Shown in pieces: positions 36,601-42,600 of a stretch of 64,000 nt of DNA (position 1 is the first letter of the stretch; the number at the start of each line of letters is the position of its first letter). Source of the stretch: Glandiceps talaboti (lineage: Eukaryota > Hemichordata > Enteropneusta > Spengelidae). The notes under the pieces are model-generated. The model ran no database searches and had not been told where the DNA came from. It saw only the letters and a list, made by a program, of their open reading frames with translations. Position numbers and translations under genes: made by a program. The stretch is taken from the NCBI RefSeq assembly GCF_964340395.1, contig NC_135552.1, positions 27,810,181-27,874,180 of the forward strand. The letters are read 5' to 3'.

Positions 36601-39600
36601 TATTGCTAGGCGATACGGCCAGTATACCGGCCTTTCGGATATAGAGTCAAACTCCAATAGGCCGGTATACCGGCCTTTAGGGTTCAAAGGGTTAAGTTTT
36701 TTTGTAAACATCGATCTTTTGACGTCGCCCCTAAATACACACTGAGTTGATAATAACTTACTTTGGTAGTTGTGCCTGTGGATCTGCTAAGTCTAATACA
36801 GGTACACTTCCTAATATCTTCTCTAAATGCAAATCATGTAGTTGATTTCGTAAGTCATGTACTTGTTGACTTAACACAACTGGTGACTTATCGGCCTTTG
36901 ACTCCTGTTTAGCTTTAGACTGGGAACATACAAATAAACATGAATAAGTATGAGATTATCCAAGTATGAGATTATCTATGGATGAGATTATCCATGTATG
37001 AGATTATCCAATTATGAGATTATCCAATTATGAGATTATCTATGGATGAGATTATCCACGTATGAGATTATCCAAGGATGAGATTATCCAATTATGAGAT
37101 TATCCAATTATGAGATTATCCAAGGATGAGATTATCCAATTATGAGATTATCCAATTATGAGATTATCCACATGAGATTATCCATGTATGAGATTATCCA
37201 AGGATGAGATTATCCAATCCATGTATGAGATTATTCAAGTATTAGATTATCCATGTATGAGATTATCAAAGTATGAGATTATCCATGTATGAGATTATTC
37301 ATGTATGAGATTATCCATGTATGAGATTATCCATGTATGAGATTATCCATGTATGAGATTATCCACATATGAGATTATCCAAGTATGACATTATCCACAT
37401 GAGATTATCCACATATGAGATTATCCAAGTATGAGATTATCCTGTATTCTAAAGGTGACTCTAGACATGCCAGTCAACATATCTGAACTATACAAGTCGT
37501 TTTGTATGATACGCTTGTGAAAATTCAACTAAAAGTACAGGTTTACTTCACTTTCAGTAGTAGTCAAATAGCAGTCAATTTTATCATGACTGTATGTGAG
37601 TACCAAAATATTCTGAGTAACTATCACTTTGAGCTGTGCCCACTTTTTATCAAAGACAAAAAAGATTCTCATGGTGAAGTGAATAGAGATGGTCAAGTCT
37701 AGCATACATCCTACGGAATTCTGAATCATTTACCTGTATTTTGTCAACATCTTCTGCTAACTAGAGAATTCTGAATCATTTACCTGTATTTTGTCAACAT
37801 CTTCTGCTAACTAGAGAATTCTGAATCATTTACCTGTATTTTGTCATCTTCTGCTAACTACAGAATTCTAAATCATTTACCTGTATTTTGTCAACATCTT
37901 CTGCTAACTAGGGAATTCAGAATCATTTACCTGTATTTTGTCAACATCTACTGCTAACTAGAGAATTCTGAATCATTTACCTGTATTTTGTCAACATCTT
38001 CTGCTAACTAGAGAATTCTAAATCATTTACCTGTATTTTGTCAACATCTACTGCTAACTAGAGAATTCTGAATCATTTACCTGTATTTTGTCAACATCTT
38101 CTGCTAACTACAGAATTCTGAATCATTTACCTGTATTTTGTCAACATCTATTCCTAACTAGGGAATTCTGAATCATTTACCTGTATTTTGTCAACATCTT
38201 CTGCTAACTACAGAATTCTGAATCATTTACCTGTATTTTGTCAACATCTACTGCTAACTAGGGAATTCTAAATCATTTACCTGTATTTTGTCAACATCTA
38301 CTGCTAACTAGAGAATTCTAAATCATTTACCTGTATTTTGTCAACATCTTCTGCTAACTAGAGAATTCTAAATCATTTACCTGTATTTTGTCAACATCTT
38401 CTGCTAACTAGGGAATTCTGAATCATTTACCTGTATTTTGTCAACATCTTCTCCTAACTAGGGAATTCTAAATCATTTACCTGTATTTTATCAACATCTT
38501 CTGCTAACTAGGGAATTCTAAATCATTTACCTGTATTTTGTCAACATCTTCTGCTAACTACAGAATTCAGAATCATTTACCTGTATTTTGTCAACATCTT
38601 CTGCTAACTAGGGAATTCTGAATCATTTACCTGTATTTTGTCAACGTCTTCTGCTAACTAGAGAATTCTAAATCATTTACCTGTATTTTATCAACATCTT
38701 CTGCTAACTAGGGAATTCTAAATCATTTACCTGTATTTTGTCAACATCTTCTCCTAACTAGGGAATTCTAAATCATTTACCTGTATTTTATCAACATCTT
38801 CTGCTAACTAGGGAATTCTAAATCATTTACCTGTATTTTGTCAACATCTTCTGCTAACTACAGAATTCAGAATCATTTACCTGTATTTTGTCAACATCTT
38901 CTGCTAACTAGGGAATTCTGAATCATTTACCTGTATTTTGTCAACGTCTTCTGCTAACTAGAGAATTCTAAATCATTTACCTGTATTTTATCAACATCTT
39001 CTGCTAACTAGGGAATTCTAAATCATTTACCTGTATTTTGTCAACATCTTCTCCTAACTAGGGAATTCTAAATCATTTACCTGTATTTTGTCAACATCTT
39101 CTGCTAACTACAGAATTCTGAATCATTTACCTGTATTTTGTCAACATCTTCTGCTAACTAGAGAATTCTGAATCATTTACCTGTATTTTGTCAACATCTT
39201 CTGCTAACTAGAGAATTCTGAATCATTTACCTGTATTTTGTCATCTTCTGCTAACTACAGAATTCTAAATCATTTACCTGTATTTTGTCATCTTCTGCTA
39301 ACTAGAGAATTCTAAATCATTTACCTGTATTTTGTCAACATCTTCTGCTAACTAGGGAATTCAGAATCATTTACCTGTATTTTGTCAACATCTACTGCTA
39401 ACTAGAGAATTCTGAATCATTTACCTGTATTTTGTCAACATCTTCTGCTAACTAGAGAATTCTAAATCATTTACCTGTATTTTGTCAACATCTACTGCTA
39501 ACTAGAGAATTCTGAATCATTTACCTGTATTTTGTCAACATCTTCTGCTAACTACAGAATTCTGAATCATTTACCTGTATTTTGTCAACATCTATTCCTA

Positions 39601-42600
39601 ACTAGGGAATTCTGAATCATTTACCTGTATTTTGTCAACATCTTCTGCTAACTACAGAATTCTGAATCATTTACCTGTATTTTGTCAACATCTACTGCTA
39701 ACTAGGGAATTCTAAATCATTTACCTGTATTTTGTCAACATCTACTGCTAACTAGAGAATTCTAAATCATTTACCTGTATTTTGTCAACATCTTCTGCTA
39801 ACTAGAGAATTCTAAATCATTTACCTGTATTTTGTCAACATCTTCTGCTAACTAGGGAATTCTGAATCATTTACCTGTATTTTGTCAACATCTTCTGCTA
39901 ACTAGGGAATTCTGAATCATTTACCTGTATTTTGTCAACATCTTCTCCTAACTAGGGAATTCTAAATCATTTACCTGTATTTTATCAACATCTTCTGCTA
40001 ACTAGGGAATTCTAAATCATTTACCTGTATTTTGTCAACATCTTCTCCTAACTAGGGAATTCTAAATCATTTACCTGTATTTTGTCAACATCTTCTGCTA
40101 ACTAGAGAATTCTAAATCATTTACCTGTATTTTGTCAACATCTTCTGCTAACTAGGGAATTCTGAATCATTTACCTGTATTTTGTCAACATCTACTGCTA
40201 ACTAGGGAATTCTAAATCATTTACCTGTATTTTGTCAACATCTACTGCTAACTACAGAATTCTGAATCATTTACCTGTATTTTGTCAACATCTTCTTCTA
40301 ACTAGGGAATTCTGAATCATTTACCTGTATTTTGTCAATATCTTCTTCTAACTAGGGAATTCTGAATCATTTACCTGTATTTTGTCAACATCTTCTGCTA
40401 ACTAGGAAATTCTAAATCATTTACCTGTATTTTGTCAACATCTTCTGCTAACTAGGAAATTCTAAATCATTTACCTGTATTTTGTCAAAATCTTCTGCTA
40501 ACTAGAGAATTCTAAATCATTTACCTGTATTTTGTCAACATCTTCTGCTAACTACAGAATTCTAAATCATTTACCTGTATTTTGTCAACATCTTCTGCTA
40601 ACTAGGGAATTCTAAATCATTTACCTGTATTTTGTCAACATCTACTGCTAACTAGGGAATTCTAAATCATTTACCTGTATTTTGTCAACATCTTCTGCTA
40701 ACTACAGAATTCTAAATCATTTACCTGTATTTTGTCAACATCTTCTGCTAACTAGTGAATTCTAAATCATTTACCTGTATTTTGTCAACATCTTCTGCTA
40801 ACTAGGGAATTCTAAATCATTTACCTGTATTTTGTCAACATCTTCTGCTAACTTGGGAATTCAGAATCATTTATCTGTATTTTGTCAACATCTTCTGCTA
40901 ACTAGAGAATTCTAAATCATTTACCTGTATTTTGTCAACATCTTCTGCTAACTAGTGAATTCTAAATCATTTACCTGTATTTTGTCAACATCTTCTGCTA
41001 ACTAGGGAATTCTAAATCATTTACCTGTATTTTGTCAACATCTACTGCTAACTAGGGAATTCTGAATCATTTACCTGTATTTTGTCAACATCTTCTGCTA
41101 ACTAGGGAATTCTGAATCATTTACCTGTATTTTGTCAACATCTTCTGCTAACTAGAGAATTCTAAATCATTTACCTGTATTTTGTCAACATCTTCTGCTA
41201 ACTAGGGAATTCTAAATCATTTACCTGTATTTTGTCAACATCTTCTGCTAACTTGGGAATTCAGAATCATTTATCTGTATTTTGTCAACATCTTCTGCTA
41301 ACTAGAGAATTCTAAATCATTTACCTGTATTTTGTCAACATCTTCTGCTAACTCTCTGATTTCATGCTGAAGTCTCTGGTATCTCTGCATTGGTGTTTCA
41401 ATGACACCACAACCCTCCCCAACCTAAGAGAGATAAACATGGAAAGATGTATGGATAATTACACTAAGAAAGTATGTGTTATGGTGAAAGCAGACCTACT
41501 ATTTACTTTATCATCTGTGTGTCCTGCATAAACCATTTCTCAATGTTCTACTATTACTCATTCACTAAATAAGTATAATGAATGGAATCAGGTCACTGCA
41601 GTTCAAAAATGTAAAATTAAAGTCAAGAAAATTATAATTCCAAAAAACTTTGTTCCAGCAAATGGTCTTCCTACAAGTCTATGACGTCAAAAGCCTGGTC
41701 ATCAAGTAATCACACACAGCAGTTGATAACTCCAAAAACTTTGTTCCAGATTGCTTTCAAGCAAATGGTCTTCCTACAAGTTTTTGCCCAGAAATCAAGT
41801 AATCACACATAGCAGTTGAGATTACACTAGTTGAATATTTTAAACTGGGGGTCATTATTTCTGTGAACTGTTGAAAATATTGATGCCACAAAACAATGTA
41901 AAGGTGAAAGAATTGTAGAAATATGAAATGTTTCCAGGTTTGCAATCAAGTGTGGCGAAAATATCAAAGAAATTTATACTTGAGAACTTGATGACACTAG
42001 ACAACTAACAAGTCACGGATTTCAAAATCATTGCATATGCTTCAGTGTGTAGATTCTGAATTTGCTCTTACAGCACTTTCAAACTCACCATTTCATATTC
42101 AGTCTTGGTGCTGTCATAGCCAGTTTTTCTGTTTGCCCCAATACGATCAGAGAAGTCTACAGAAACAAAAGTACTTAATCAGTAAAAGAGGTATGGGTAC
42201 AGTATGAATCTGTGGACAGAAACTATATATATCTATCATGTTTTATGAAAATCAGTCTTTTAACTAACAACCTGTCACTTTCCTGAACATTGCATGAAGC
42301 TATTGTATAGTGCATATTTTCTAACCATTTTATCCAAACAAGTCAGGAAATTATTAAATCATTTCAAAGGAAAACAATTTAGTGTAATTTTCTGCTCATA
42401 AAAATATTGCTGTGGCGTATGAAGTTAAAATACTTCAAAAGTATTCAAATGTCTTTGCTATGAAAAGTGCACAGTATTAGAAGAAGCACTCACCTAGGCT
42501 ACTGGCATCGAGTGATTTTCCTTTAAATCTTGAGTATGCCGAGTCTGGATTCACAACTATTCTCTCCACACTTTCACTAGTAAGTTCATCCTAGGAGTAA

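Follow-up and report, generated by a model that had tools for sequence, protein, structure and literature searches.

The DCTN2 gene of the hemichordate Glandiceps talaboti, a spengelid acorn worm, which encodes dynamitin (the p50 subunit of dynactin), lies complete and intact on the minus strand of a 64,000-nucleotide stretch of contig NC_135552.1 (assembly GCF_964340395.1, forward-strand positions 27,810,181 to 27,874,180; this whole stretch is the window, and its own numbering is used throughout). Two of its exons, exon 5 and exon 11, end within long tandem arrays whose units each contain the end of the exon together with the start of the following intron and hence the 5' splice site (donor). 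The spliced gene model is composed of 13 coding exons that specify 402 amino acids. The exons were located by tblastn with the human protein as query, exon 9 being placed by eye, and were then trimmed to splice sites. The model shares 48% identity with the human protein and is the same as the database protein "dynactin subunit 2-like isoform X2 [Glandiceps talaboti]" (P0001), with 100% identity over 100% of the length of 402 aa; the model that gives this match uses the first donor at both exon 5 and exon 11. Exon 5 is flanked in the model by introns of 665 nt upstream and 4405 nt downstream, and exon 11 by introns of 13748 nt upstream and 2213 nt downstream. The features concerned are as follows.

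15525..47272, minus strand: DCTN2 coding span, 13 exons, 402 aa (spliced model and database protein match)
41325..41423, minus strand: DCTN2 exon 5, 99 nt long, entered and left in phase 0, with copy 1 of array A as its last 27 nt (spliced gene model, 100% database protein match)
37711..41353, minus strand: array A, 73 units mostly of 50 bp (Tandem Repeats Finder (TRF), unit cutting)
41298..41351, minus strand: the exon's own copy (unit 1, starting at 41351) with the read-through up to a TAG (unit cutting, translation)
18475..18577, minus strand: DCTN2 exon 11, 103 nt long, with copy 1 of array B as its last 45 nt and CAA (Q) as codon 343 (gene model, alignment)
17009..18521, minus strand: array B, 31 units mostly of 49 bp (TRF, unit cutting)

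A first-pass annotation, made from the letters alone, had described the sequence that follows exon 5 as a satellite built from the exon 5/donor junction, with about 73 copies of a 50-bp unit. The gene model, in which 41325-41423 is indeed the fifth of 13 coding exons, and the composition of the units both bear this out. TRF delimits array A at 37711-41353 with a period of 50 and 73.0 copies, and cutting by hand also yields 73 units including the exon's own copy, spaced by 50 bp in 69 of 72 cases and by 47 bp in the other three. The unit consists of 27 nt of exon 5 (encoding LAEDVDKIQ) followed by 23 nt of intron 5 that begin with GTAAAT, and three units are without 3 nt of the exon part. The 27-nt exon tail finds 70 matches in the window at no more than 3 mismatches, a limit which the three 47-bp units exceed, where 100 shuffles give an expectation of 0. 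The boundary of the repeat is as exact as had been claimed, with exon sequence 5' of TTAGCAG, the start of which is the codon for the L of LAEDVDKIQ, being absent from it. The donor CAG/GTAAAT (the slash marks the exon/intron junction) had been said to be intact in each copy, which is slightly too strong: it is kept in 71 of the 73 units and reads CAG/ATAAAT in units 2 and 10. GAATTC, similarly ascribed to every unit, is present in 71 and lost from two. Array A accounts for 3614 of the 4405 nt of intron 5, the remainder being made up of an unrelated 16-bp array (497 nt) and 294 nt of other sequence. It comprises 27 distinct unit types, the commonest of which (10 of 73) is the exon unit itself, identical to nine other units.

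The second donor-spanning array of DCTN2 (17009-18521), at exon 11, had gone unreported. The unit of array B is composed of 45 nt of exon 11 and the four nucleotides GTAA, and its 30 spacings measure 49 bp in 25 cases, 55 bp in three and 36 bp in two. AAG/GTAA is kept in all 31 units, of which 28 continue as GTAAGG, two as GTAAGA (one of these being the authentic donor) and the last as GTAAAC. Array B makes up 1466 of the 2213 nt of intron 11 and contains 18 distinct unit types.

When a strong donor is defined as a sense-strand match to MAG/GTRAGT at a minimum of 8 of 9 positions (at least 8/9), DCTN2 holds 110 of them. Array A contributes 71 and array B 30, the authentic donors included, and the other 26.6 kb of the gene only 9, such that the two arrays together hold 101 of the 110. 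Extension of exon 5 past its first donor encounters an in-frame TAG that begins at 41300 (minus strand); the stop that the first-pass annotation had described is thus real, and later donors would truncate the protein, but it begins a little way into the second copy, upstream of the donor position there, and not in the first unit. Extension of exon 11 past its first donor reaches a TGA at 18463, after ...LHQQGKNC and before the donor of the second copy. Because in both arrays the stop precedes the second-copy donor, the use of any later donor would truncate the reading frame. This would be compatible with a rheostat in which some transcripts use later donors, run into the early stop and are degraded, so that the length of the array sets the amount of dynamitin. 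The excess of strong donors in the arrays over the 9 found elsewhere, the truncating position of the stops and the occurrence of two such arrays within one gene all argue for such a rheostat. However, chance alone puts a stop in most out-of-frame repeats, and there is no clear evidence of selection on the array A decoys, whose donor columns (9 of the 50) hold 1 of 16 substitution types (P = 0.19). The 130-aa read-through product of array A has no Glandiceps protein among its 17 matches, three of which are nameless and only 40-45% identical, and a truncated isoform from a later A donor was rejected on these grounds as far as a protein database, as opposed to RNA, can tell. For array B the sole Glandiceps-named entry among the 120 listed of 855 matches is P0001 itself (2 sequences). 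RNA structure that would hide the decoys was likewise rejected, and speaks no more for a rheostat, as single units do not fold more stably than shuffles (z -0.1 for A and -0.5 for B). On balance a rheostat of this kind appears quite improbable. The further idea that acceptors inside array A turn its copies into small exons was discarded, there being no sense-strand YAG site in the array with at least 11 pyrimidines among the 15 upstream positions.

The explanation that we regard as probable is that both arrays are minisatellites spanning a donor, or "mirages" as they are called in amphioxus, which are tolerated since exon definition picks the nearest of the near-identical donors. Under exon definition the spliceosome would match the acceptor upstream with whichever of the many near-identical donors lies nearest, and the extra copies, which are located downstream of the authentic donor, would be spliced out; array growth would be nearly neutral for this reason, with later donors giving a premature stop. 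According to Carranza et al. 2022, two identical CAG/guaagu donors in a setting of long flanking introns led to exclusive use of the upstream one in all five minigenes, and the switch to exon definition takes place at an intron length of 200-250 nt (PMC9225289). Exons 5 and 11 both have introns of over about 250 nt on each side, as exon definition demands, and because even the shortest of these, at 665 nt, well exceeds the switch, we infer that exon definition makes arrays A and B nearly invisible. The intact database protein agrees with splicing from the first donor at both exons, which is a fit to a protein and not RNA evidence. Donor strength cannot single out the authentic donor of array A, because this is the same as 70 others at the nine compared positions.

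Several observations weigh against this explanation. The Glandiceps talaboti database protein is itself probably a gene prediction. The minigenes share with DCTN2 the identical donors behind one acceptor and the exon-definition context, but theirs were two donors in a construct and here there are tens in a natural gene (compare PMC9225289), and a pair of donors is far from 73. The classical rule (Reed and Maniatis, cited in PMC9225289) favours the downstream donor, the one nearest to the acceptor, in intron-defined splicing, and would be ruinous if it operated here. In addition, unit 2 of array A, its nearest decoy, has lost the donor, a sign perhaps that a nearest decoy is not harmless; the nearest decoy of array B is intact. 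Finally, in 150-nt local windows the authentic donor of array B is predicted to be less open than all 30 of its decoys (0.14 versus 0.36), while that of array A is predicted to be more open than 68 of its 72 decoys (0.74 versus a mean of 0.55). Because these predictions run in opposite directions, folding was rejected as a common explanation for the two arrays. It might nevertheless play a part in array A. A 319-nt stretch of exon 5 and the copies that follow folds better than 100 shuffles (z -3.27), which the repeats themselves may favour, and in the predicted fold of five tandem consensus A units CAG/G is mostly unpaired and the following TAAAT mostly paired. The donor is mostly paired in the corresponding predicted fold of consensus tandem B units.

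As mirages, arrays A and B fit a pattern known from another phylum and here seen in Hemichordata. In amphioxus, mirages are minisatellites across an exon/intron boundary, with examples in Adh3 and the globin genes BflGb6 and BflGb9 (PMC3087553) and, by citation, in troponin C and PGBD5 (PMC3902484), and regular splicing has been reported for them along with instability in length (PMC3087553). The boundary-spanning tandem units, many of which carry AG/GT splice signals, are common to amphioxus (PMC3087553, PMC3902484) and Glandiceps: the DCTN2 units hold the exon end and the intron start (27 and 23 nt in A, 45 and 4 nt in B), and the splice signal is kept in 71 of 73 and 31 of 31 copies, respectively. 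The unit size is 10-72 bp in Adh3 and 150-160 bp in BflGb6, an acceptor-side array whose two haplotypes carry 6 and 3 units (PMC3087553); Glandiceps differs from BflGb6 in having 73 and 31 units of 49-50 bp, in two arrays of one gene that are both on the donor side. Human segmental duplications contain minisatellites at exon-intron boundaries too, with 27 intron-modifying cases averaging four units of 30 bp (PMC2812944). These share with the DCTN2 arrays the location at exon edges, but in the human cases the exon often retains the repeat, and new introns and alternative transcripts can arise from it. No report of a hemichordate mirage came up in searches of the open-access literature, which covered most papers by their listing, and the term in this sense was met only in the two amphioxus papers (PMC3087553, PMC3902484); the main text of a study of two hemichordate genomes (PMC11175523) makes no mention of tandem repeat, minisatellite, satellite or intron.

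The placement of the arrays within the gene was assessed for 13 DCTN2 arrays, defined as TRF rows with a score of at least 100 after merging overlapping rows by hand. Two of the 13 span a donor and none an acceptor, the two being the longest tandem arrays of the gene, A and B. Five lie no more than 40 bp from an exon, both spanning arrays included. Three further arrays stand close to exons:

36946..37442, minus strand: array of 31 copies of a 16-bp unit, 27 bp short of exon 6 (TRF)
32511..33144, minus strand: compound array with a 55-bp unit, 36 bp short of exon 10 (TRF)
33565-33673: ACTC array, 19 bp from a DCTN2 exon edge (placement analysis)

These 16-bp, about 55-bp and ACTC arrays stop short of the exons, as if splice signals held them off. 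The distribution bears on the possibility that the donors of this lineage actively seed tandem duplication, for example by transcription-linked structures that form at them. That the two longest arrays both span a donor would agree with such targeting, as would the random-placement probability for array B alone (P = 0.028), the proximity of five arrays to exons when placements are disallowed if they take in a whole exon or fall entirely within one (1.2 expected, P = 0.005) and the presence of such arrays in several amphioxus genes (PMC3087553, PMC3902484). Yet random placement yields at least two donor-spanning arrays of 13 with P = 0.06, which means that donor targeting is not established; the value for any junction-spanning arrays is 0.20 and that for 40-bp proximity under free placement 0.08 (2.6 expected). 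Survivorship, with selection removing arrays elsewhere in exons, can produce the same bias, and amphioxus has arrays on the acceptor side as well (PMC3087553). A targeted origin is on these figures rather unlikely.

In each array the two exon bases that precede the unit match the last two intron bases of the unit, a 2-bp microhomology (AG in A, AA in B), and it is proposed that each array began as one tandem duplication across the donor, joined at this microhomology, and would then have grown by slippage or unequal exchange. Array A contains block duplications, with units 31-40 repeated as 60-69 and 47-52 as 53-58, and units 1-3, among them the exon's own copy, recurring as 9-11. The longest repeated run is 10 units, compared with a maximum of 4 in 500 shuffles of unit order, and an alignment of units 30-44 with 59-73 over 742 positions gives 99.06% identity, with 4 mismatches and 3 gap positions. 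The repeated blocks (about 15 units placed 29 units apart, and 6 units adjacent to each other) suggest growth by slippage or unequal exchange and, in the one assembly available, point to turnover within the array. Array B does not conform to this picture, as it is without block structure and its longest run of 2 is reached in 315 of 500 shuffles. Long arrays of near-identical units are hard to assemble, and the near-identity of the two stretches of about 15 units would be expected if array length or copies had arisen by mis-assembly; but the units fall into 27 (A) and 18 (B) distinct types, the repeated stretch still differs at the positions given, and one flank of the array is unique intron and the other the exon, which makes an artefact very improbable. 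The copy numbers themselves rest on one assembly and could be off.

The exon copies appear to take part in this turnover. Codon 343 in exon 11 is CAA (Q), and of the 29 array B units that keep the codon 8 have CAA (the exon included) and 21 have GAA, two units lacking it. In an alignment of 14 hand-chosen rows from the 120 listed of 855 matches, the residue in the 13 other animals is E in 11, N in Saccoglossus and Q in Lingula. The simplest reading of these variants is that array B was founded while the exon had GAA, and that exon and array have exchanged sequence since. Alternatively the exon 11 change could have occurred separately and have been copied into the array afterwards, which likewise requires exchange; chance recurrence of the CAA and GAA variants is possible but less simple. 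The exon 11 copy alone has a GCC where the 30 other B units have GCT, and because of this private variant any exchange or homogenisation is not complete, a point which tells against a free flow of sequence between them. The shared variants suggest that exon ends swap sequence with their arrays, and the exon's own copy may thus join the array exchange, with the coding ends of exons 5 and 11 evolving partly in concert with the arrays.

The introns themselves were probably not made by the duplication that built the arrays, because beyond each array, on the side away from its exon, the intron sequence is unrelated, and because the acceptor ends are unlike the units, the acceptor and exon 6 start having been compared with the A unit by eye. 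In intron gain by tandem genomic duplication the copies are said to bound the new intron at both ends. In DCTN2 the repetition is confined to the donor end and the acceptor bears no relation to it, with the exon 6 acceptor side showing, by eye, no duplicated unit. What is shared with intron gain by this route, of which the potato RNA-dependent RNA polymerase gene (RdRp; PMC4974935) is an example, is a tandem duplication that carries AG/GT. The creation of an intron by tandem duplication of an AG/GT proto-splice site, the array being the new intron, has been modelled for the amphioxus globin mirages (PMC3087553) and proposed from exon-edge minisatellites in human segmental duplications (PMC2812944). 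In its simple form it needs copies that reach the acceptor, but array A stops at 37711 and is followed by 268 bp of other sequence and the 16-bp array before the acceptor and exon 6 start, which are unlike the unit, and this route therefore seems extremely improbable here. Returning to tolerated donor-spanning minisatellites, a broader and more tentative proposal is that the coding sequence at the ends of exons 5 and 11 takes an active part in hypermutable minisatellites, in which unequal exchange may bring array copies into the exon and with them amino-acid changes such as E343Q, exon definition would hide about 100 decoys, and longer arrays might slowly tax or tune expression; this is possible, though we would not count on it.

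Several other features of the window deserve mention. DCTN2 (minus strand, ATG at 47272) and the first exon of a kinesin-1 heavy chain gene (plus strand, ATG at 47846) are arranged head to head within 47237-47971, with start codons 573 bp apart, and the best PDB match of the kinesin exon is kinesin-1 heavy chain. Human DCTN2 and KIF5A are divergent neighbours too, and the head-to-head pair may therefore be an old shared promoter pair. A 46-bp array of about 8.8 copies (50317-50716) is located in the presumed intron 1 of the kinesin gene, and most of its copies carry GGCAGGGTAT. This array and the 55-bp and 16-bp arrays were rejected as mirages, no exon sequence having been recognised in them by eye. 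An acidic open frame at 36250-36597 on the minus strand, within DCTN2 intron 6, has no Pfam match; it may resemble the N-terminal part of a piggyBac-type transposase. (TA)n tracts are found at 4537-5184 (about 650 bp) and 46686-46883 (198 bp). Two exons of RPL27 lie on the plus strand at 8579-9520 (Pfam Ribosomal_L27e), with an earlier exon near 7.7 kb placed by eye only.

Expression of DCTN2 would require the cell to pass over about 100 strong decoy donors. The gene thus offers a natural test of donor choice, with about 100 near-identical strong donors of which only the first in each set gives the full-length protein, and the presence of two arrays of different size in one gene permits an internal comparison. 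The arrays carry mirages from amphioxus to hemichordates, and what they represent looks like a wider and under-reported route of intron growth. Through the apparent exchange between exon and array, a non-coding satellite would have a measurable way of altering a conserved protein.

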